NCBI GenBank assembly: GCA_016932965.1
Contig: JAFGBW010000149.1
Location: 1 to 17,675, forward strand
DNA length: 17,675 nt
Source of the DNA: Candidatus Auribacterota bacterium
Lineage (GTDB): Bacteria; Auribacterota; JAFGBW01
Direction: 5' to 3'
Below are positions 2,720 through 16,187 of this stretch, piece after piece. Within the stretch, counting starts at the first letter, position 1, and every line of letters begins with the position of its first letter. Position numbers and translations under genes: made by a program. The notes beneath the pieces are model-generated. The model ran no database searches, had not been told where the DNA came from, and saw nothing but the letters and a program-made list of their open reading frames with translations.

Positions 2720-3158
2720 TTTTTAATTCTTCCCCATGAGGCGCCAGATATAATACGATCGGCTCCACATGAATCACTCCGCCCCCGTGAGGGACATCCG
2801 GCATGATCACGACCTTTTTAAATCCATTCGTCCCATCTTGTGTTTCACTGACCCGGATAATGATGGACGCTTCTTTCAAATGGTCAATTCCGGACGAGAT
2901 TCGATGATAAGCCGACAGCAAGGGTTCTTTTTTTTCACCGCTTAAGACGGATTCGTGATTCTCCCCGATAAGGCGTTCAGCCGTTTTAATGATGGACTGA
3001 TGCACAACCAGGTTTTCCGAATCAATGTCATTGAGATAAATGAGGCGTCTTGCGCCCGCGATCAGTAAAATGATGATGATAAGAATAATCAGTCCTCCGC
3101 CGAGGATGTCGAAAATTTCATTCGTGTTTATCTCTTCTCTTTTCATCTTCATTTTCAA
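2700..3158 (-). CDS. Unknown single-pass membrane protein (152 aa)
   Basis: I do not recognise this protein. A short basic N-terminus is followed by one strongly hydrophobic segment (about 17-38, Gly- and Ile-rich), then a soluble domain of roughly 110 residues. Inside-to-outside topology would place that domain in the periplasm. A PHGGGVIHVEP stretch lies near the C-terminus. The start is probably TTG at 3158, which overlaps the upstream gene's stop (TTGA, 3155-3158) and implies translational coupling. ATG codons at 3152 and 3146 are alternatives. The last seven residues (KKLRIEN) come from the heptamer repeat, so the original C-terminus may have been altered by repeat insertion. It is the last gene of the cluster behind the sigma-54 activator and the PilX-like protein. 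A pilus or secretion accessory role is only suggested by position. Confidence 0.75.
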   Translation of the reverse strand: MKMKMKREEINTNEIFDILGGGLIILIIIILLIAGARRLIYLNDIDSENLVVHQSIIKTAERLIGENHESVLSGEKKEPLLSAYHRISSGIDHLKEASIIIRVSETQDGTNGFKKVVIMPDVPHGGGVIHVEPIVLYLAPHGEELKKLRIEN

Positions 3159-3532
3159 TTCTTCTTACCTAAATCCGCTTTCAACAAGGCTTTTTTGCCC
3201 CCATATCTTCCCGTGCAGAGGGCAGTCCGGCCGTTTTCAGTGAGTGACGCCTCATATTTCGTCCCGTCCGAATCCGTGTAAATACAGGTGTTCCCGAGAA
3301 GCGTCCACCCTTCCGACCATCTCTTTTCTGAGGATTTTGTCAGCTCATGAAGGATCAGGTTCGCTCCTGAAAAAGCGTTGAAATAGGCCCGTCTTTTCCA
3401 TAGAGGCTCCTCCCGGTACGCTTTGGACCTGTCTCTTAAGGCGAACAGACCTGCCATGACCATGCAGAAGATGATGGCTGTAAACAGCGAAAGGATGAAA
3501 ATCCTGCCTGATTTCTTATGGTTTGTTTTCAT
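3155..3532 (-). CDS. Small PilX/GspK-like membrane protein (125 aa)
   Basis: The protein has a Lys-rich N-terminus (1-9), a hydrophobic helix at about 11-31, and an amphipathic continuation. That continuation contains AYFNAFSGANLILHEL, which resembles the helix after the membrane segment of PilX/GspK-type minor pilins (typically an FxAAExGL-like pattern). A small C-terminal domain with two cysteines follows (in GNTCIY and TALCTG), possibly forming a disulphide in the periplasm. No clear G|FTxxE prepilin peptidase site is visible, which is not unusual for PilX/GspK-like proteins. The ATG at 3530-3532 overlaps the 3' end of the response-regulator gene by 17 bases, and the stop overlaps the next gene by 4. 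The three are therefore probably co-translated. The gene itself is well supported; family assignment is moderate. Confidence 0.7.
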   Translation of the reverse strand: MKTNHKKSGRIFILSLFTAIIFCMVMAGLFALRDRSKAYREEPLWKRRAYFNAFSGANLILHELTKSSEKRWSEGWTLLGNTCIYTDSDGTKYEASLTENGRTALCTGRYGGKKALLKADLGKKN

Positions 3533-4913
3533 CGGAAGGCCGTATTTTACCTTTTTCTGCTAATTTGCTTAATTTGTTGTAAAGGGTCTGCACGGTTATC
3601 CCCAGCCTTTTGGCCGCCTGCATCTTATTCCCGCCGGTCAATTCCAGCGTCCTTTTTATTTGTTCCATCTCCATGTCTTCCAGCGTGACATGTCCGGAAG
3701 AAACGGCTGTTTCCATGTGCTGTATTTTTGATCCCAGATCTTTTTCCACCTCGTTCAAGGTTATCCATTCCCCCCCGCATAAAAGCATCAGCCTTTCAAT
3801 CGTGTTTTTCAGTTCCCTGACATTGCCCGGCCAGGTATGGCGTTTCAGGATTTCCATAGCCGAAGGTTCAATCCCTTTTATGATTTTGCCTTCTATACGG
3901 ATATTTCTGATAAAGTATTCAGTCAAAACAGGGATATCCTCCTGACGGTCATTCAAAGGCGGGATGGTCAGGTTGATCACATTGAGCCGGTAATACAAAT
4001 CCTCCCTGAAATGTCCGGAACTGATTTCTTCATCAAGCTTTTTTGCCGTTGCGCCTATTACTCTTACATTCACATAACTGATGTCGTTGCTGCCGATCCG
4101 TCTCACCTCTCCTGACTGAAGCGCCCTGAGGAGCTTCACCTGCATGGCAAGGGGGAGCTCCGCTATTTCATCCAAAAAGAGCGTTCCCTTGTCTGCCAGG
4201 GTAAAAAGCCCGTCTCTTTTGTCCACAGCACCGGTGAACGCTCCCTTGACGTGACCAAAAAGTTCGCTCTCAAAAAGTTCGGCAGGGATGGCCCCGCAGT
4301 TGACCACAATAAAGGGGTTATGCGAACGACAGCTCTTTGAATGGATCCTTTGTGCAAAAAGTTCTTTTCCTGTGCCGGAATTGCCTGTGATAAGAATAGA
4401 GGCATCGGAACCGGCGATTTTTTCAGCCATCTCCATGACATGGGCCAGAGGAGAAGATCCGGCGTAAATGATCTCATCAAGTTTACTCAGGTCTTTTGTT
4501 GTTTTTCCTGTGCCGTTTTTAGGCATCAGTCTTACCTGCGCGCATGAGCGCAAAATGACATCGGCAACATGGTCGATTTCCAGCGGTTTTACGATGTAAT
4601 CAAAAGCGCCTTCCTTGATTGCCCTGACAGCCGTCTGAATCTCATTGTGACCTGTGATGATGATGACAGGGCAAAATGGCCTCATTTTCTTGATCATTTT
4701 CAGCGTCTGTATCCCGTCCATTTTCGGAAGATTAAGGTCAACCAGAAAGGCGTCGAATTCCGACTCCCGGCATTTCAAGACAGCCTCTTCCCCGCTGAAC
4801 ACGCATTGGGTATGTATGGAAGCAGAGAGGGAAAGACTCCTGCCCAGAAGCTTCGCTCCCTTTTTGTCGTCATCCACGATCAAGACGGATAAGGTTTTAT
4901 TTTGCGCATCCAT
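3516..4913 (-). CDS. Sigma-54-dependent response regulator, NtrC/PilR class
   Basis: This is a cytoplasmic activator that, once phosphorylated, oligomerises and uses ATP to open promoters bound by sigma-54 RNA polymerase. The full three-domain layout is present in 465 residues. The receiver (about 8-125) has acidic pocket D14/D15, phospho-acceptor D59 in LVDLNLP, T87 and K109 in VKP. The AAA+ domain (about 148-380) has Walker A GNSGTGKE (177-184), the sigma-54 contact loop GAFTGA (224-229) and Walker B TLFLDE (244-249); R303 and R309 lie in FREDLYYRL. The Fis-type helix-turn-helix is at about 418-450 (GGNKMQAAKRLGIT). All key residues are intact, so it should be active. The ATG at 4911-4913 has no visible Shine-Dalgarno; heptamer repeats sit directly in front of it. 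Its partner is presumably the kinase at 5162-7354. A plausible target is the divergent pilin-like operon, which has a sigma-54 promoter. Confidence 0.95.
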   Translation of the reverse strand: MDAQNKTLSVLIVDDDKKGAKLLGRSLSLSASIHTQCVFSGEEAVLKCRESEFDAFLVDLNLPKMDGIQTLKMIKKMRPFCPVIIITGHNEIQTAVRAIKEGAFDYIVKPLEIDHVADVILRSCAQVRLMPKNGTGKTTKDLSKLDEIIYAGSSPLAHVMEMAEKIAGSDASILITGNSGTGKELFAQRIHSKSCRSHNPFIVVNCGAIPAELFESELFGHVKGAFTGAVDKRDGLFTLADKGTLFLDEIAELPLAMQVKLLRALQSGEVRRIGSNDISYVNVRVIGATAKKLDEEISSGHFREDLYYRLNVINLTIPPLNDRQEDIPVLTEYFIRNIRIEGKIIKGIEPSAMEILKRHTWPGNVRELKNTIERLMLLCGGEWITLNEVEKDLGSKIQHMETAVSSGHVTLEDMEMEQIKRTLELTGGNKMQAAKRLGITVQTLYNKLSKLAEKGKIRPSDENKP

Positions 4914-4921
4914 GTAGTTAA

Positions 4922-4952
4922 AATTGAGAATTGAGAATTGAGAATTGAGAAT
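4922..4952 (+). repeat. Perfect tandem heptamer (AATTGAG)x4
   Basis: Four exact copies of AATTGAG followed by AAT lie immediately upstream of the response-regulator start codon, in the position where its ribosome-binding site would be expected. This is the most homogeneous copy of the dispersed AATTNAG family, and its exact units make it the best candidate for copy-number slippage. Confidence 0.85.
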
Positions 4953-4960
4953 GAATCATA

Positions 4961-5140
4961 TTAAACTCCTTCAGTTTTTTTTGTTGTTTTTATCATTCCG
5001 GACAGAATCTTATCCCATTCAATGGATTCAGTAATATGCGACTCAATATCCAAATGATTATCTGCTTTAAAATTATTGCTGAATTGAATCATGCTTAATG
5101 CAATTCTAAAATTTTTCTCTTTATTTGAATTTGTCTTCAT
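4961..5140 (-). pseudogene. Short ORF (59 aa), possible internally deleted four-helix-bundle (S23-like) protein
   Basis: On the minus strand an ATG at 5138-5140 opens a 59-codon frame ending in TAA at 4961-4963. The peptide begins MKTNSNKEKNFRIALSMIQF and ends DKILSGMIKTTKK. From memory, the two ends resemble the first helix and the last helix of the 'four helix bundle'/23S rRNA intervening-sequence protein family. Those proteins are about 115-125 residues and often end in a KxLxxIIKTxK-like pattern. The middle two helices, with the usual SIGANVEEA-type motif, are missing. I therefore read it as a deleted remnant. Composition is much more AT-rich than its neighbours, and heptamer repeats bound both sides, which suggests foreign origin. 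It sits between sensor kinase and regulator. The alternative is a genuine small AT-rich gene or chance ORF. Confidence 0.4.
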
Positions 5141-5145
5141 TTTTT

Positions 5146-5157
5146 AATTCTTAATTT
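5146..5157 (-). repeat. Degenerate heptamer repeat copy
   Basis: On the minus strand this reads AATTAAGAATTA, i.e. one AATTAAG unit plus most of a second, placed just 5' of the short ORF at 4961-5140 and just 3' of the kinase stop codon. Together with 4922-4952 it brackets that ORF. Confidence 0.5.
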
Positions 5158-5161
5158 CTTC

Positions 5162-7354
5162 TTAACCTTTAAACGCCGGGAAGGATATTACAAATTCCGT
5201 GCCCTCATTGATAACACTTTTAACTCCAATGGTTCCGTTCATTCTTTCCACCAGACTTTTTACCAGTGCGAGTCCCAAACCCCAGCCGCTTTTTTCAGAC
5301 ACAATCTGGGTCGTATAAAACGGCTCGAACAGGTGAGGAATCACATCGTCAGGGATCCCTTTTGCGTTGTCGATGAACCGGATCACGCACCGGTCGCTGG
5401 ATTGTTCACAATGAATGGCGATCCGGACAGGATCGCCGCCGGAAGCCTGTTCCGAGTTCCAGAACAAATTGGAAAAAATACGCAGCAAATAGGCCGGGTC
5501 TGAAAGGATCTGAAGATCGGCCGGACATTGAACTTCCAGCGAGGTCGAAAAGCTTTTCATGGAGTTTTCTGTTTTTTCCTGAAACAGTTTCATGACAGAA
5601 TGCAGATTCACGGGCAACAGCACAAGCTCATCGCTTTTTCCCAGCTCCAGAAGAGAAAGCGTCATGGAGCGTCCCTCCCTGATGGCGTCATGCATGTCGT
5701 CGAGAAATTCTTTGAGGTCTTCGTCTTTCACGGTTTTGGTCAGGATATCCGCGCTCATCCTGATCCGGTTTAAGATATTGTTGAAATCATGGGCCATCCC
5801 TGTCGCGAGGAGGCCGCAGCTGTATAGTTTTTCGCCCTGAATCAGCTCAGCCTCCATACTTTTGCGGTCGCTGATATCATTGAATATCGCGATGATCCCG
5901 GATATGTCCTGGTCCGTTTTCAACACGGACGTCTTGATGCCGAAATAACAGATCTCTTCCATTCCCTTCCATTGGATTTCCTGGCTGTCGATATTGTTAC
6001 CGGTATCAAGACTATCCAGCAGCACGTCTTTGAATACGCCCGGGAAAGCGATTTCCCGGATATGTTTCAATTTCTCGGCGCCAAAATCCTTCTTCAGGAG
6101 TTCTTCCGCAGCGGGATTCATGAACTGCAGCCGTCCCTGCCTGTCGAGCACCATCACGCCTGTGGTCACCGAATGGAGGATGTTTTCATGGAAATGTTTC
6201 AGTTCGATGATCTCATTGGTTCGCTGATTCACTTTGTCTTCAAGGTGTTTGTTCAATTCCAGGATTTTTTTCTGTGCCTCGTCGAGCTTTTCTATCATGA
6301 GATCAAAATGTCTGGAAAGGGAAGCCATTTCACCCGGGTATGAAATACGTGTTTTAAACGCCATATCCCCTTTTCTGGCCCTGTTCATCCCGTTTTCTAA
6401 AATACGGATCGGTCCGAAGAGATGCTTTGAGGAAAATGTGTAAAACAGAAATACCAGGAGCAGCATGACAGGCAAAAGCAATAAAAGTGTCCGCCCTATC
6501 ATGTTGATGATGGAATAACTCTCATCTGTTTCCTGTGTGAGCAGGACTTTCCATTCAGGCATATGGATGAAAGTGCTGCTGCCTCCTGATCCTGAAACGC
6601 CCGCGATCAGGTTTTTGCCGTTTTCATCTTTGAATTCAAAAACACGTCCCTCCCTGCCTGAGCTCAGAATCCGGCGAAGAACAGAGTCAGGCCTGAAAGG
6701 GGAAAGGATCAGACTCTCCAGGACTCCGCCGATGTACCTTCCTTCCGAATCCAGGAGAATGATCCTGCCCGTATTCCCGAAACGGATCGAATTGGTCAGA
6801 TGCCAGATTGATTTCATGGTGATTTCAGCCAGCATCAGATATTTGAGTTTGTTCTCCGCTCCATTAACAGGAACCCCGATATACACAACCGGGTTCTTTG
6901 AAATATTCGTGGTGTATACTTTTGAAAAAGCAGCGAGGCCTTTTTCCGCGTAAGGTTGAAATTCCTTGATGAGTTCCATGGGAATAAACAAATCATCATT
7001 GCTTGAAATGATTCTACTGCCGGATGGATCGCACAGCGACACGGAGGAAATAGAGCTGTGAAAGGAACAAAAAGACACCATTTCCTGTCTGATATGATCG
7101 TTGAAGGGAGCGGATGAAACAAACACAGGGTTCTTGGAAAGTGTTTTTACTGCAGAAGAAATTCTGTAAAAATTGGTTTCAATCAGCGTTGCGGCATGGA
7201 TTGAATTGGCGCGGATGTCAGTCTGCACACGCTCTTTCAGACTGTCCTTGACCTGAAAAAAAAGAAAAGCGGATAAAATGACAATGGGCAGATACCCGGC
7301 GATGACATACTGGAGCTTAAAAATCGTTTCAAGTTTGTCTGGTATCAGTTTCAC
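5162..7354 (-). CDS. Membrane sensor histidine kinase (Cache-HAMP-PAS-HisKA-HATPase)
   Basis: This inner-membrane sensor phosphorylates a partner regulator, presumably the adjacent sigma-54 activator. Its 730 residues show a first membrane helix (about 16-34) and a periplasmic region of about 250 residues of double-Cache type (FGNTGRIILLDSEGRYI at about 192-208 is characteristic). A second membrane helix (about 287-307) leads into HAMP (about 308-360), a coiled coil (about 355-390) and a PAS domain (about 388-495, MVLDRQGRLQFMNPAAE). HisKA follows with H522 in AHDFNN, then HATPase with N633 (N box), D662 (G1), FEPFYTT (F box) and GWGLGLAL (G2). The G1 box reads DNAKGI instead of the usual DNGxGI. 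The start is GTG at 7352-7354, shortly after an in-frame stop; no good ribosome-binding site is visible. It has two membrane helices rather than the six of classical PilS, so its signal is probably an extracytoplasmic small molecule. Confidence 0.93.
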   Translation of the reverse strand: MKLIPDKLETIFKLQYVIAGYLPIVILSAFLFFQVKDSLKERVQTDIRANSIHAATLIETNFYRISSAVKTLSKNPVFVSSAPFNDHIRQEMVSFCSFHSSISSVSLCDPSGSRIISSNDDLFIPMELIKEFQPYAEKGLAAFSKVYTTNISKNPVVYIGVPVNGAENKLKYLMLAEITMKSIWHLTNSIRFGNTGRIILLDSEGRYIGGVLESLILSPFRPDSVLRRILSSGREGRVFEFKDENGKNLIAGVSGSGGSSTFIHMPEWKVLLTQETDESYSIINMIGRTLLLLLPVMLLLVFLFYTFSSKHLFGPIRILENGMNRARKGDMAFKTRISYPGEMASLSRHFDLMIEKLDEAQKKILELNKHLEDKVNQRTNEIIELKHFHENILHSVTTGVMVLDRQGRLQFMNPAAEELLKKDFGAEKLKHIREIAFPGVFKDVLLDSLDTGNNIDSQEIQWKGMEEICYFGIKTSVLKTDQDISGIIAIFNDISDRKSMEAELIQGEKLYSCGLLATGMAHDFNNILNRIRMSADILTKTVKDEDLKEFLDDMHDAIREGRSMTLSLLELGKSDELVLLPVNLHSVMKLFQEKTENSMKSFSTSLEVQCPADLQILSDPAYLLRIFSNLFWNSEQASGGDPVRIAIHCEQSSDRCVIRFIDNAKGIPDDVIPHLFEPFYTTQIVSEKSGWGLGLALVKSLVERMNGTIGVKSVINEGTEFVISFPAFKG

Positions 7355-7671: not shown

Positions 7672-8682
7672 TTGATCCAGAAAATCAAAAAGAAAAGAAA
7701 AAAACTGGGAGTAACCCTGGTGGAGATCATGGTTGCTTCCGGTGTCTTTGCCATTGCCTATGCCGGTCTTTTGGTCGGCCAGCAGATGGCCCGTCAAAAA
7801 GTGGAGTATTCCCTGACCAGCTTTGTGATTCTTCAACATGCGCATGGACTTTTGGAAGCCATTCAGAGTTACGCTTATGAGGACCCCACCTACCCGCATA
7901 CTTCCAGCGACAGCGCGGATGCAACCGCGGCCTTTATCACCCATACGGCGAATTTAGGCGGCACCTATGATCCGAATAGCGGAGTGTATGATGCTTCTGA
8001 TACACTCAGAATTCCCCTGCCGGAGGAATCCCTTTCCATTGCCACCCATAACACCGTGGTTCCATCCACTGCCACCGCTCTCAATCCATTTCAAAGACAG
8101 GGTTTGAATCCGAACAGCTATCTCCTGGGCCCTGAAGATGATGATATCCGCTTTGACTCGCTTCCGCCTCTTTTCAAAATATCTGAGACGGAAAGGGCCC
8201 TGAATATATTCGGCAACGGTCAGGAAAAATATTATTTCATGAATGACGTGGATGATTTCGACGGATACAGGGAAACGATGGAAGTCCTTCCGGGGATCAC
8301 CGTCATCTTTGACGTTTCCGTCACAGGAGTCTTCCGGAATTCTCAGGATTATATATACATGGTCCGGAACGCAGGCCCTCCGGCAAGCGATGTCGGAACG
8401 GAAACCATCCCGCAGTCACGTTTTGGAGTCATGCAGCCAACCGTGGGGGCGGCGACCGGGTCCATCTCGATTGCTGATTTTCAGACGTTATTCCCCCTGA
8501 TAAATACTTCAGACAATCCAACGGATCAGGCTCAGCAGATGTGTTATGGATATTATAACCAGATGCTCATGAAAAAAATAACCGTGAAGGCAACCTGGAC
8601 TTATCCTGCCGGATCCAATCGGGTATTGACCCTGGTGATCGATGGAGGAAAAGTCAATCCAACAGGGGACGTATTAGCATGA
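7672..8682 (+). CDS. PilV-like prepilin-type N-methylation protein
   Basis: This is a probable minor (pseudo)pilin, inserted in the inner membrane and processed by prepilin peptidase. With the TTG start, the 336-residue product has a strongly basic leader (MIQKIKKKRKKLG). Next come the cleavage/methylation motif G13|VTLVE with Glu at +5 and a hydrophobic helix at about 14-38 (VEIMVASGVFAIAYAGLLVG). The rest is a large C-terminal domain with no recognised fold, longer than in most PilV/GspI proteins. It is first in a three-gene operon, overlaps the next gene by four bases (ATGA), and follows the sigma-54 promoter. The assignment to PilV rather than another minor pilin rests mainly on order (V-W-X). 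Confidence 0.85.
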   Translation: MIQKIKKKRKKLGVTLVEIMVASGVFAIAYAGLLVGQQMARQKVEYSLTSFVILQHAHGLLEAIQSYAYEDPTYPHTSSDSADATAAFITHTANLGGTYDPNSGVYDASDTLRIPLPEESLSIATHNTVVPSTATALNPFQRQGLNPNSYLLGPEDDDIRFDSLPPLFKISETERALNIFGNGQEKYYFMNDVDDFDGYRETMEVLPGITVIFDVSVTGVFRNSQDYIYMVRNAGPPASDVGTETIPQSRFGVMQPTVGAATGSISIADFQTLFPLINTSDNPTDQAQQMCYGYYNQMLMKKITVKATWTYPAGSNRVLTLVIDGGKVNPTGDVLA

Positions 8683-9329
8683 AAACAAAAAATCAATCCG
8701 GTTTTACCATGGCGGAAATGATGATCAGTCTGGGCATTTTTACGATCATTTCTGCCGGAATCATTACAGGCGCCATGCAGATCAGTAAAAACATTGAAAA
8801 AACCAGAAACTATGTCATGGCCCGGGAAAGGCTGGCCTCTTTTGTCCAGGGGGCATACAGCTTTGTGAACCGTTCTCCGGCAGCTTTTTTCTGGGACTCG
8901 GACATCTCCGCGGAAATGGATTACATCAATAAATTCCCCGCCCTGCCCGCTGCGTCTCCCATGCTGGACACGATCTTTTTCATTAGAAACGACACCTCCG
9001 GCAACATCGCCCGGATGGTTTTTGATCCTGCCGCAAGGACAATCAGCTGGTTCAGCGCCACAGGTTCGCCGGCCCAGGTCATGATCAGAAATGTCCTTCG
9101 CATCGATTATGTCAGTGACGCCAGTCCGGGAACTCAGTCGGTGTTTCGTTTTCCCCATCGTGCAGACCTGTATACCCCGGCCAGTTATCCCCCGACAAAC
9201 CCCAATTTCAATTCGCCTAATTTTATCGTGATTCAATTCAGGCAGTTGATTGCGGCTCCGACCAGTATTAATCCTAATCCCATAACCATACCGGTTCGGT
9301 TGATGTTACAACTCAATACCATCACCTGA
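8679..9329 (+). CDS. PilW-like prepilin-type protein
   Basis: This is a probable minor pilin of a type IV pilus or type II secretion-like pseudopilus. In 216 residues the leader MKTKNQSG is followed by FTMAE (cleavage after G8, Glu at +5) and a hydrophobic helix at about 9-30 containing MMISLGIFTIISAGIITGA. The C-terminal domain has the mixed-strand look of PilW/GspJ proteins, with a late hydrophobic strand (NFIVIQF) and a final PVRLMLQL strand. The ATG overlaps the previous stop codon, and a GGGGA lies about ten bases upstream inside the preceding gene. It is therefore translationally coupled. It is the middle gene of the pilin-like operon. Confidence 0.85.
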   Translation: MKTKNQSGFTMAEMMISLGIFTIISAGIITGAMQISKNIEKTRNYVMARERLASFVQGAYSFVNRSPAAFFWDSDISAEMDYINKFPALPAASPMLDTIFFIRNDTSGNIARMVFDPAARTISWFSATGSPAQVMIRNVLRIDYVSDASPGTQSVFRFPHRADLYTPASYPPTNPNFNSPNFIVIQFRQLIAAPTSINPNPITIPVRLMLQLNTIT

Positions 9330-9345
9330 ACCTGAAGGAGGTCCA

Positions 9346-12300
9346 ATGAATAAATCCAAACAAGCCCTGTTTAAAAGGGGAAATATACTGGTAGTCACAC
9401 TTGTGGCTGTTGTGATCGGAGGTATGGTTGTCGGAAGTCTCATGAAATTCGTGGCCATGGACAATTTCTCCGTTGAAAAGGAAATCGGTCATGTCAAAAG
9501 CAGTGAAGCGTTGAAACTCAGCATGCAGCTTTATAATACCACAGTGGCCAATCAAACCACCGCGGTGACTCAAACCGTCATTGACCGGCTGACTCAGCTG
9601 ATCGGCGGAGGGGGAATTTCAAAACCGATTTTCGGCAGCAGCTCAGGCGGAACCCAATCCTCAGTTCCCGGGTTCAATCAATTTTCTGTCTTGTGGAATG
9701 ATTCCCAGGTCGTCTCCACAACGGCCCTGACTCCGCCGGCAGCGGACGATCCCACTGGTTTCTGGTATTATCCGGGCACGGCCACAGCCACAGTGGTTGC
9801 CACCCATACAGGCCAGGATGTTCCCGCGGTCAGAAACGGCAGCAAGGCCATGGTCAGTTCAGGAAACACATTGAGAACCATTCCGGCCTTCAGCATGCTT
9901 TCCTTTTACGACAGGGACTGGGAGGTTTCAGCGCATTATGAAAGCGCACAATTGATCGGCCGCATTCACTCAAACGGCAATATTTATCTGGACTGCCGTG
10001 ACCAGGGTAACGACCGTGTGCGGTTTCACGGCCAGCAGAATTATCCCATCCTTTCATCCACCAAACAGGTTTTCAGAAGAGGCCGGAACGGCGCTACGTC
10101 CTGGTATAAATTCGGAACGATTCCAAACAATCAGGGTCTTAATTTTTATGAATACAGCCAGGCGGTCTTTGAGTCAGTGATCAATTATAATCAGATGACC
10201 GGTCTGGGTGATTTTAACTATACGGATTACGTCGGATCCGCCATTTTTGCCAAGGACATGACTCCGGATTATACCAACTATGAAACAGGAGCCGTCACCA
10301 CGGACTCCAGCCCGAGTGAATGGGTCGCCCGCCGTTTCGGCGGTTCCGGAACAAACTTCGGCTACGTGTTTAACGGAACCCGCTCGACGAACCCGGGACT
10401 GACTCCCAATACGCCCAATACCAATGATTTCATGGCCCCGACAACCACCGGAGGAAGCGTGGCTGTTGTGCAGAGTGCAATCCCCCGGCTGAGCCCGCCG
10501 GTGGCCATCAATCCGTACCAGTATATTGAAGACACGCAATTCTACGATACTCCGGACACCATCCCTCAACCCGGAGTGTTCACCAATTACCAGGCGGATG
10601 CGTCTAGCGGAGGCAAGGTGGCGGCTTTGGCGTATAATTCCATTGCCCCCCTGGTCATCCGTGACGGAGTGGCTTATTACAGGAACACGCCGGGCGGTAC
10701 CCTGCAGCCGGTCATGAATCTGATTGCGGGTAATTCAGAAACACTTTATCCGGATGACACTCATCCCGCCGCATGCCGGTACGGTGATCTGAGATGGTAC
10801 GGCCATTTCGGGCAAAATGACGCAATACCTGCTTCTCCGTCCAACCCGGACCGGTGGCATTTTCCCATCCGGAGTGTCACGCTTAATACAACAACAGATG
10901 CAAACAATGCTGGAGACGGTACAACTTCCGCTGAAGGAACCGCGGTTCCTTTTACTTATAACTCAACCACTGTCTTAAATCCGGTCAATGACGGAATCCG
11001 GGACCTTGCCGGAAGCGTCGTGCCGACAACCTGGATCACGCGTTCCAGGGAAATCAGGGACAATAGTACCGGAAATGGAATTGCAGGATATCCGCCATGT
11101 AATACCAGTGCACCGGCTGATGCTTCAACCGGCTCCGGCGTCGGAATGTGGTATGCCTCCTACAACACCATTGATACCAACAACAATGAACGGTACGATC
11201 CGGTGAGAGTGGCATACAACCTGGTCAAGGATGAAGTCCGGCGCATGCACAATAACAGCCATGCGTATACTTCCCGCATGGGACTGGCGGACATCGGCGG
11301 GGGAGTCATGAGGATGAAAATGCTGAACGCGAACGGCAGTTATCCAGGCAACAACGTGGCCCCGAATGTCTGGGGGGCAGGAAGTATGCCGGATGCAGCC
11401 GGAGTGGATTATGACAATATAGACGTGGATAATAACGATACAACTGACATCGATTATTCTGCTTTCTGGAATGATGACGGCGGCCGTCAGACCGGATTTC
11501 AATACCTTCGTCTGAATATCACCGCCTCTGCGAATGCCCCCCGTATTTATAACATTTCTTATGGCAGCGCCACCACCTCGTTAGGAAGCCCGGCGCTTCC
11601 CATGACTGCAGATACGGCCCCTTTTCCCCAGGAAACAACAGCCTCCAGTGTCAACTCGACTTATGCCGCTTACAGGGCTTTTGACAGCAATACAACCGGC
11701 ACGGACTGGAGACCCACTGCTGCGGGAGCTTCATGGATTACTGTCAAACTGGGTATCGCAATCAATCCCACTACCGTGACGATACGGCTGAGCGGGACAA
11801 GCTATGGCCCCAGCTCTTTTACCATCCAGGGAAGCAATACAGGAGCCTTCACCGGAGAAGAAGTGCTCCTGGGCACCTTCAACAGCGTCACCTGGTCGAG
11901 TACCCTGCAAACCTTTAATCTTCCCGGATCTAATCCGCTTTCCCTGTATAACGGATTTTCTCCTGACGAATATTTTTATTCCTACCGGCGGGACCAGAAC
12001 TCCACGAATACCAATGCCTCCAGGGGGGAAATCTATCTCGGACCCGTGAGGGATTCGACCGCCCGTGTCGAACTGTTCCCCATCCGGCATGATTCCCTTT
12101 GTACAAGCGGGACTGCTTACTCTCCCATGACAAACTGGTTTGTCTACAAATCCACGCTTCCCCTGTGTGACCGGAGCGTTCCCATGCCGGAGAGCTACAA
12201 CGCCCTGAATTACCCTTTGACAGGAAATTCCACAACAAATCTATGCAGAAACAGCTTCGGCTTTGCCGGAACCCCGGACGGCTTTCACAACTATTATCTC

Positions 12301-13926
12301 CTTTTGAACAATGCTCCTGAGATCCTGGCCCGAGTTTCCACATCCGGCCAGACTTTTGAAACCGACAATACCGGCGGATTTTATTATTACGGAGGGGATA
12401 ACGGAGGCTATTACGGAGTGGACAATCTCTGCATGATTGACGCCCAGGAAAAAAAGATCGTGGTGTTCACGGAAATCGATCTGTCCGAGCTCACTCCTGA
12501 ATGCTTTACTTTTAACGGGCTGGACACAGCCTGGGGATTTAATTTCAACAACAACACGGCCACGGCCACAGCCAATACCTTACAAAATCTCATATACGTG
12601 GTGAATACCACCATGGGGAATAATTTTTTTGGAAAACGCGTGCATTGCGGGGCTGTGCGCCTGAAACGAGGAGCAGTGATTCAGTTTCCTTTGGCAGTAG
12701 GCTCACCAAACGCCATTCATATCTGGGGTGATTATAACTGTCCGGGTTATTGGCATCATGGCATGGACAGCGGATATTATTCTGTTTCCTACGCGGTCCC
12801 CACTACCCGGGAACATGATTCGGCAACAACCGTTACCACCCAGCGCTGCGCTCTTTACGGGGACACGATATACGCCTATGAAACCAACTGGATTCGTCTG
12901 GATAAGAGTGATTCAAGCCGCGATCAGATAACGGACAGGTATTACGGCACCATGATCAACACCATCGGCATGCGTGGCGACCAGAACATCTGTTATGACC
13001 ATAAATTATGGTGGGAGGACGACGGAATGAGAAGGGCCGGACAGGAGGGGATAACCGGCTCTGCGAATCTTTCGAACCGGGGAGCCCAATTGTTCATCAA
13101 TTATCATGAAATGCTTTTTGATATCGTCAACAATGATTATTTTTCGTTAGACGCTTCCTGGGGAGATTCTCCGGGATCCACCACCAATAACCGCAGATCC
13201 TCCAACCAGATCTGGAAGCACGCGGCCCAGGGCATCAATGCCGCCATGATGTACGGGAACGTTGAATCCAGACTCCCCAGCTTTTTCTGGGCTTCGGATG
13301 TCAGCGTCCTTCCGGCCTGTCCTGCTTCCGTGAGTCTATTAGACTGGTACATGAGCTGGATTCCAAGAACCCGGTGGATTGAAGCTGAACGCAACCAGAT
13401 GAGAAATGACATGCCGAACACCATGACTAACGGCGGATTCAATCCTTCCACTGTGAATGCCGCTTATATTAATGCCAATTTATCTCCTTCCAATTATCTG
13501 GGAACCACCTTCGGCAACTCGATTCCCAGCGGAGCGGGGTCCGGCCCCTCATCCGCCAGCGTGCAATGGGAAAACTGCAAATTGAAATTCTCCGGAGGCG
13601 GATTTTTGTTTGATATCCGCGTGCTCACAAACCAGACGTTTAATCTTCAGGAATGGAATTCCAATTCCGCCTCGGCTCCGGGAGGAAGAACTTTCACGGG
13701 ACAGGAATTCGGCAGGAATATCCGGGGATCTTTTGCCTGTCTTTTTGACTGCCGCCAGAATACGCACGGCTGGAACACAACGTTGGTTGGAAGCGAAGGC
13801 CACCAGCTTTTCTACTCTTATAATATTGATTACAATAATTCTGACAACCTGCCGCCGGGAACGCCCATGACTACCAATGTTCCGCCTACCCAGTACGCGC
13901 TGCAGGGAACCAAGTGGACGTATTGA
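9346..13926 (+). CDS. Giant PilX-like protein with discoidin domain (1526 aa)
   Basis: This is a candidate pilus-tip or surface adhesin. The N-terminus matches PilX/GspK-type minor pilins: basic leader, RG at 11-12, hydrophobic helix about 13-34 (NILVVTLVAVVIGGMVVG), then a long amphipathic helix. There is no Glu at +5. RIHSNGNIYL (206-215) recalls the HTNG-like motif of PilX/DUF4900-type proteins. Residues about 765-870 look like an F5/8 type C (discoidin) domain: YRAFDSNTTGTDWRP, then SWITVKLG, a TVTIRLSG strand and SFTIQGSN. Asp/Asn-rich stretches at 608-618 and 692-702 could bind Ca2+. The remainder (about 890-1526) is rich in Asn, Tyr, Gly and Thr and unrecognised. AAGGAGG precedes the ATG by four bases, and the gene starts 16 bases after pilW-like. 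Ordinary PilX is about 170-200 residues, so this is an extreme enlargement. Confidence 0.85.
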   Translation: MNKSKQALFKRGNILVVTLVAVVIGGMVVGSLMKFVAMDNFSVEKEIGHVKSSEALKLSMQLYNTTVANQTTAVTQTVIDRLTQLIGGGGISKPIFGSSSGGTQSSVPGFNQFSVLWNDSQVVSTTALTPPAADDPTGFWYYPGTATATVVATHTGQDVPAVRNGSKAMVSSGNTLRTIPAFSMLSFYDRDWEVSAHYESAQLIGRIHSNGNIYLDCRDQGNDRVRFHGQQNYPILSSTKQVFRRGRNGATSWYKFGTIPNNQGLNFYEYSQAVFESVINYNQMTGLGDFNYTDYVGSAIFAKDMTPDYTNYETGAVTTDSSPSEWVARRFGGSGTNFGYVFNGTRSTNPGLTPNTPNTNDFMAPTTTGGSVAVVQSAIPRLSPPVAINPYQYIEDTQFYDTPDTIPQPGVFTNYQADASSGGKVAALAYNSIAPLVIRDGVAYYRNTPGGTLQPVMNLIAGNSETLYPDDTHPAACRYGDLRWYGHFGQNDAIPASPSNPDRWHFPIRSVTLNTTTDANNAGDGTTSAEGTAVPFTYNSTTVLNPVNDGIRDLAGSVVPTTWITRSREIRDNSTGNGIAGYPPCNTSAPADASTGSGVGMWYASYNTIDTNNNERYDPVRVAYNLVKDEVRRMHNNSHAYTSRMGLADIGGGVMRMKMLNANGSYPGNNVAPNVWGAGSMPDAAGVDYDNIDVDNNDTTDIDYSAFWNDDGGRQTGFQYLRLNITASANAPRIYNISYGSATTSLGSPALPMTADTAPFPQETTASSVNSTYAAYRAFDSNTTGTDWRPTAAGASWITVKLGIAINPTTVTIRLSGTSYGPSSFTIQGSNTGAFTGEEVLLGTFNSVTWSSTLQTFNLPGSNPLSLYNGFSPDEYFYSYRRDQNSTNTNASRGEIYLGPVRDSTARVELFPIRHDSLCTSGTAYSPMTNWFVYKSTLPLCDRSVPMPESYNALNYPLTGNSTTNLCRNSFGFAGTPDGFHNYYLLLNNAPEILARVSTSGQTFETDNTGGFYYYGGDNGGYYGVDNLCMIDAQEKKIVVFTEIDLSELTPECFTFNGLDTAWGFNFNNNTATATANTLQNLIYVVNTTMGNNFFGKRVHCGAVRLKRGAVIQFPLAVGSPNAIHIWGDYNCPGYWHHGMDSGYYSVSYAVPTTREHDSATTVTTQRCALYGDTIYAYETNWIRLDKSDSSRDQITDRYYGTMINTIGMRGDQNICYDHKLWWEDDGMRRAGQEGITGSANLSNRGAQLFINYHEMLFDIVNNDYFSLDASWGDSPGSTTNNRRSSNQIWKHAAQGINAAMMYGNVESRLPSFFWASDVSVLPACPASVSLLDWYMSWIPRTRWIEAERNQMRNDMPNTMTNGGFNPSTVNAAYINANLSPSNYLGTTFGNSIPSGAGSGPSSASVQWENCKLKFSGGGFLFDIRVLTNQTFNLQEWNSNSASAPGGRTFTGQEFGRNIRGSFACLFDCRQNTHGWNTTLVGSEGHQLFYSYNIDYNNSDNLPPGTPMTTNVPPTQYALQGTKWTY

Positions 13927-16154: not shown

Positions 16155-16187
16155 GAATTGAGAATTTAGAATTAAGAATTGAGAATG
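16155..16187 (+). repeat. Heptamer repeat (AATTNAG), four units
   Basis: Units AATTGAG, AATTTAG, AATTAAG and AATTGAG are followed by AATGGGA. It begins nine bases after the nonamer repeat, so the two repeat families are adjacent here. They are also neighbours at 13934/14093. Confidence 0.8.

Follow-up and report, generated by a model that had tools for sequence, protein, structure and literature searches.

Among the minor pilins of type 4 filaments, PilX proteins are shorter than 200 amino acids and GspK has about 300. Minor pilins form a tip complex that is capped by a subunit without Glu5 (review, PMC10191384). GspK carries a helical insertion (PMC8179133), and ComZ of Thermus thermophilus, which carries an inserted DNA-binding β-solenoid, has been proposed to act as a receptor at the filament tip, where it was argued to reside because its inserted domain cannot pack within the filament (PMC6561018). 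In Streptococcus sanguinis, the pilins PilB and PilC carry a widespread adhesive module, either vWA or lectin, and the filament itself is the adhesin (PMC8179133, PMC9934059); both stand in for the PilHIJK set (PMC10191384). HpsA of filamentous cyanobacteria (NF038301) is a large membrane protein encoded together with pseudopilins, and for HpsA-D in Nostoc hormogonia a pseudopilus or pilus role in polysaccharide export has been proposed (PMC4284469).

Here, we describe a 1526-residue protein from Candidatus Auribacterota that can be compared with each of these systems. Like ComZ, it is a pilin or pseudopilin enlarged by a domain inserted in the pilin framework and encoded beside another pilin gene, but the inserted domain is a discoidin/CBM32-like module instead of a β-solenoid. 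It shares with GspK/PulK and PilX the last place in the I-J-K or V-W-X gene order, the lack of Glu5 and, through its relatives, a PilX_N or GspK-type N-terminus, yet differs from them in a head of about 1490 residues. As in PilB and PilC, a putatively adhesive module is carried by the pilin itself; in those proteins, however, the module is C-terminal on a small IPR012902 pilin, whereas here it is internal to a large PilX/HpsA-type head. Its relatives contain HpsA blocks in order (profile positions 285-336, 959-1006 and 1320-1440) and are likewise large and encoded with pseudopilins, but all their scores fall far under the HpsA cut-off and no hps glycosyltransferase genes were seen. CBM32 modules with the same fold are appended to glycoside hydrolases, whereas here the module sits inside a pilin head. 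No discoidin-bearing modular pilin was found in the literature searched, to which a published list of 264 architectures did not belong. The combination was not found elsewhere, rests on one assembly and follows an underlying principle that is known.

Our best explanation, to which we assign a probability of roughly 0.6, is that the protein is a tip-type minor pilin of the GspK/PilX class that lacks Glu5, has two Glu5-bearing partners encoded in the same operon and carries a glycan-binding adhesin module.

A three-gene pilin operon with a giant last gene

The window (the whole analyzed stretch of 17,675 nucleotides, contig C224) belongs to a 3.1 Mb genome in 300 contigs (92.6% complete) of Candidatus Auribacterota, which is placed in the PVC group. 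At its upstream end lie the end of what we take to be a gyrA-like gene and a presumably asd-like gene, followed by two small membrane proteins, a sigma-54 response regulator and a dCache/PAS histidine kinase (all on the - strand). Three pilin genes on the + strand come next, and a TPR membrane protein (-), panD and others complete the window. The first pilin gene starts with TTG behind GGAGG and encodes a leader ending in ...KKKRKKLG^VTLVE; it overlaps by 4 bases with the second, whose leader reads MKTKNQSG^FTMAE. Both prepilins contain Glu5. Only 16 bases separate the stop codon of the PilW-like gene from the ATG of the third, and the three genes form a pilin operon in which the giant gene is last. 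The features of the operon are as follows.

7672-8682, +: PilV/GspI-like minor prepilin, operon gene 1 (N_methyl, E=0.0019; 5.5e-4 in the genome search)
8679-9329, +: PilW/GspJ-like minor prepilin (N_methyl, E=6.5e-7; TIGR02532)
9335-9341, +: Shine-Dalgarno sequence AAGGAGG of the giant gene (sequence)
9346-13926, +: PilX/GspK/HpsA-like large minor pilin with inserted discoidin domain (open reading frame; relatives' profile, E=1.4e-11)
9346-9456, +: prepilin-like leader (residues 1-12) and hydrophobic helix (13-37) (hydropathy, alignment to relatives, Glu5 table)
9835-10095, +: core block 1, residues 164-250, including RIHSNGNIYL at 9961-9990 (profile positions 144-221, i-E 1.1e-6)
10633-10908, +: core block 2, residues 430-521, with APLVIRDGVAYY identical in the closest relative (G002, locus L083) (sequence matches)
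10909-12414, +: residues 522-1023, an insertion of about 500 residues where the closest relative has only about 85 (sequence matches to that relative)
11566-11937, +: discoidin/F5-8 type C/CBM32-like domain, residues 741-864 (Pfam, phage-domain profile, AF2 model, fold matches)
12415-12765, +: core block 3, residues 1024-1140, VFTEIDLSELTPEC ... CGAVRLKRGA ... SPNAIHIWGDYN (relatives' matches, profile)
13156-13269, +: core block 4, residues 1271-1308, INAAMMYGNVES (colinear, not significant alone; MAFFT)
13717-13881, +: C-terminal core block, residues 1458-1512, ...NIRGSFACLF ... NLPPGTP (profile positions 540-600; match in relative G030, E=8e-7)

The giant gene is a single intact frame of 1526 codons that starts with ATG. 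The N-terminus of its product, MNKSKQALFKRG^NILVVTLVAVVIGGMVVGSLMKF, contains the hydropathy maximum of the whole protein (2.67 at residue 14; the next peak elsewhere reaches 1.26), and the leader ends in glycine (LFKRG^NILVVTLVAVVIGGMVVGSL) before the hydrophobic α1N helix, as in prepilins. Position 5 of the mature protein is valine. An earlier note, made from the sequence of the window, had reported a basic prepilin-like leader with a hydrophobic helix and a RIHSNGNIYL motif near residue 206, both of which are present, the latter at residues 206-215. Self-BLAST revealed no internal duplication of the core.

Two observations concern the surroundings of the operon. The sigma-54-dependent response regulator and histidine kinase adjoin it divergently (window 3516-7354, -), and the same pair lies convergently beside the pilin operon of a distant relative, G030 (L064:7361-9770, -), which suggests PilSR-like control of the pilin operons. 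Overlapping the regulator gene, a 125-residue protein (window 3155-3532, -) has a PilX/GspK-like N-terminus, KKSG^RIFILSLFTAIIFCMVMAGLFAL...YFNAFSGANLILHEL, with no family match; it is possibly a small minor pilin. Between genes, the window also has three short tandem arrays of A/T-rich heptamers (AAGAATT, AATTGAG and GAATTGA, at 2591-2631, 4922-4952 and 16155-16186); among them only 4922-4949 is an exact array with at least three copies, and no further exact heptamer arrays occurred in the 232 kb of the window genome examined.

A family of large minor pilins

Direct searches placed the protein poorly. Pfam and NCBIfam yielded no match of the 1526-residue sequence to PilX_N (PF14341), GspK (NF037980) or HpsA, and a PDB sequence search was uninformative about the pilin part. 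Whole-protein sequence matches among 39 related genomes were limited to one, G002 (JAFGJP010000047.1), which belongs to the same order as the window genome. A contig scan with the 1526-residue sequence alone returned no relative, the same scan with the G002 alignment returned only G002's own record, and viral contig scans for the family core returned nothing. A profile search with the pair recovered a third member, G030, a 716-residue protein encoded directly behind two overlapping prepilin genes that matches NCBIfam HpsA (NF038301) at E=7e-17. The HpsA model in turn found members in six of 44 phylum genomes, none above the cut-off; these Auribacterota proteins have roughly 555-720 residues, resemble PilX at the N-terminus and carry a '..R....D.....PPG' motif at the C-terminus. 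By tblastn, the family also occurs in Thermus, Deinococcus and Picosynechococcus plasmids, preceded by one to three prepilin genes and annotated as 'pilus assembly PilX N-terminal domain-containing protein' or hypothetical. The Thermus oshimai relative passes the PilX_N cut-off (25.8 vs 25.5 bits), and an Auribacterota relative (L078) matches GspK (E=1e-5).

As a test of membership, a profile was built from 11 relatives (L064, L077-L082 and L084-L087) without the 1526-residue protein and without the G002 protein. It detected the G002 protein at 7.6e-45 and the 1526-residue protein at 1.4e-11, whereas 20 shuffles and the reversed sequence of the latter remained silent. The matching blocks are in order: profile positions 144-221, 367-448, 473-514 and 540-600 correspond to residues 164-250, 1035-1132, 1271-1308 and 1458-1512. 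The protein also contains the family core motifs in colinear arrangement (..hsN..yL, GI.YV/AVRL.NG, LT.A..N.lY..GdyN, naA...G and GS...Lw .. PPg.P). By these sequence comparisons, it is a member of a widespread PilX/GspK/HpsA-like family of large minor pilins that is partly described in databases.

This assignment modifies the picture drawn in the earlier note. Its description of the protein as PilX-like holds by way of the relatives and lacks a direct PilX_N match; because only relatives match PilX_N or GspK, we call the protein PilX/GspK-like rather than PilX. The more than 600 further residues regarded as unrecognized proved to be family core and no orphan extension, since the profile matches colinear blocks there. 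Nor is the size, contrasted there with PilX-type minor pilins of usually under 200 residues, unusual in itself, because relatives with no discoidin domain seen already span about 555-812 residues across Auribacterota, Thermus, Deinococcus and Picosynechococcus; the remaining length is accounted for by additional insertions, which the alignment to relatives places at about 1141-1270 and 1312-1415. The family had no sequence match to any solved chain, and an AF2 model of a relative's core from a two-row alignment reached a pLDDT of 27.

Several loci enlarge this picture. In the window genome, a second giant PilX-like protein of about 1040 residues (L054:6340-9495, contig C19) lacks Glu5, lies downstream of two Glu5-bearing prepilin genes and has no Pfam or NCBIfam match. 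Another PilX-like protein (L043:1492-2913, contig C167) matches DUF7305 (E=2.5e-14) and, weakly, an ice-binding-like fold, the type reported for the ComZ solenoid. At L079, L080, L081 and L082, RCC1-like repeat proteins, some with a PEP-CTERM-like end (VPEPA...), adjoin the large pilin genes and are possible secreted partners of the large pilin. On a plasmid of Deinococcus sp. KNUC1210 (L086:3589-5522), a member is split into two overlapping frames, a PilX_N half and an HpsA-like C-terminal half, through either a frameshift or a genuine division of the gene.

Kinship with HpsA makes a role in the handling of the cell's own polysaccharide a serious rival to tip adhesion. The operon would then encode a T2SS-like pseudopilus or pilus that aids export or handling of this polysaccharide, and the discoidin domain would bind it and not a foreign surface. 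Relatives match NCBIfam HpsA with E-values of 7e-17 to 7e-24, and at L004:2-5468 the gene of the G002 relative is convergent with an adjoining T2SS cluster comprising GspF, a GspH-like protein, two pseudopilins, GspK, a PilN domain protein and a GspM-like protein. The best HpsA score is, however, 83.6 bits against a curated cut-off of 400, which no match attains, and no glycosyltransferase gene was recognized among the scanned neighbors of the window operon; we judge this role unlikely.

The discoidin domain and its insertion

The earlier note had placed an F5/8 type C-like segment at about residues 765-870. Several lines of evidence agree with this proposal and extend the domain to about 741-864. 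Pfam F5_F8_type_C (PF00754) matches residues 764-835 (E=2.5e-5) with 24.8 bits, just below the curated 28.2, and with 30.3 bits, above the cut-off, in the genome search; PHROG 17517 'tail protein' matches residues 752-862 (E=2.7e-5). A profile of 19 discoidin domains from phage contigs, which excludes the 1526-residue protein, scored 50.4 bits (E=1.4e-15) against it, whereas none of 100 shuffles exceeded 8.2 bits; its rows were chosen by likeness to the domain, which makes this test slightly circular, unlike the Pfam match. An AF2 model of residues 712-906 reached a pTM of 0.63, with pLDDT values of 73-91 over 772-861 and below 50 after 869. With VIA-align, the best PDB chains were CBM32-5 of CpGH89 with Tn antigen (4a44; 105 residues aligned at Z 8.3 and rmsd 2.6), the SUN domain of SUN2 (Z 8.3) and a galactose oxidase precursor (7.8), the matches spanning 741-864. 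These top Z values (7.7-8.3) are near the warning level of the tool, yet all belong to galactose-binding-like folds and unrelated rows scored 6.1 and below. In BFVD, phage F5/8C proteins match the model with E-values down to 1e-7, whereas Foldseek against the PDB gave no significant match (best E 0.14). As the alignment for AF2 consisted of discoidin domains themselves, the fold matches represent consistency and not independent proof. Residues 741-864 are a galactose-binding-like jelly roll of the discoidin/CBM32-like type, to which modeled strands at 718-739 may also belong. The sequence YLRLNITA near 719-726 had hinted at a second, upstream copy, for which residues 1-745 gave no support (1.3 bits).

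CBM32-like modules mostly bind glycans; for discoidin domains, proteins or phospholipids are further ligands. The insertion could be structural or protein-binding, with the jelly roll as a scaffold or docking module of the head that has no glycan specificity. The SUN domain among the best fold matches, similar domains on phage virion proteins and the approximately 380 residues of the insertion besides the discoidin domain fit such a function. Against it, the solved structure with the highest Z, a rank shared with SUN2, is a CBM32 complexed with Tn antigen, and most PDB matches of the discoidin profile are modules from proteins that act on glycans, for example CBM32, sialidase and galactose oxidase. 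A purely structural or docking function is in our view quite improbable.

The position of the domain is best seen in the closest relative, the 525-residue G002 fragment (L004), of which residues 44-119 match 430-521 and residues 205-316 match 1024-1139. The two proteins share the 12-residue APLVIRDGVAYY. Between the two matching blocks, about 85 residues in G002 face 502 in the 1526-residue protein, which is thus longer here by an inserted net length of about 420 residues, the discoidin domain included. The discoidin profile found no such domain in nine Auribacterota relatives, and no discoidin-bearing homologue was detected beyond the window assembly in related genomes, contig scans or viral contigs. 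The concern that the gene might be a fusion found in this assembly only thus applies to the discoidin-bearing form and not to the core, which is widespread and whose nearest representative lacks the insertion. A foreign origin of the insertion was considered on the basis of base composition and is unsupported, its GC3 (0.56-0.58) resembling that of the remainder of the gene. That misassembly or a strain peculiarity joined the domain to the pilin without functional meaning is very unlikely: the source is a single genome of 300 contigs and no domain-bearing relative was found, but the insertion lies in correct order and frame between two core blocks of one open frame of 1526 codons, and GC3 is uniform (0.53-0.64 across segments beyond residue 40, near that of neighboring genes).

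A putative adhesive pilus tip

The reading as a tip-type minor pilin builds on position 5 and on gene order. None of the 12 family members whose leader could be resolved has Glu5, and prepilin genes precede the large gene at each of the 10 related loci with upstream sequence, where only the presence of these partners counts as a result because the search pattern demanded Glu5 in them. The expectation that homologues with the same N-terminus follow PilV/PilW-like genes is thereby upheld, here for PilV- and PilW-like genes and elsewhere for prepilin genes. The packing argument made for ComZ would carry still greater weight for a head of about 1490 residues. No genes of a filament machine lie inside the window; the window genome has 11 T2SSE ATPase, five secretin and 30 N_methyl matches, which suggests that it encodes several type 4 filament systems. 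The PilY1 β-propeller (PF05567) has no match in the 1526-residue protein, nor in the window genome or 42 other genomes of the phylum, in a search that ran without a positive control. The reported absence of a PilY1-like gene nearby therefore stands within the window, and the suggestion that homologues lack PilY1 agrees with the Auribacterota genomes searched, to the extent that this uncontrolled search allows.

According to the preferred reading, the PilV-like and PilW-like partners and the 1526-residue protein would together initiate a type 4 filament as its tip complex, with the large head remaining outside the filament body as a cap. From this head, the discoidin/CBM32-like module would project and bind a glycan, be it the cell's own or a foreign polysaccharide, or a surface. 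In other systems minor pilins share this work with a separate adhesin, for instance PilY1; here one polypeptide may do both parts. Because CBM32-like modules mostly bind glycans, putative glycan binding by the pilus tip is the most likely role, and the insertion suggests that the tip doubles as an adhesin. A broader and more tentative idea, which we consider possible and would not yet favor, is that diderm phyla without PilY1 generally use the PilX/HpsA-like family as a Glu5-less tip platform, with binding modules inserted in its loops; the present protein would then carry the first identifiable lectin-type module and merge tip initiation with glycan adhesion.

How type 4 filaments adhere without PilY1 is an open question, and the large Glu5-less minor pilins of Auribacterota, cyanobacteria and Deinococcota could be the tip component that is missing there. 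Through the discoidin insertion, one member of this family has a testable ligand class, and the family as a whole offers a route to the role of HpsA.
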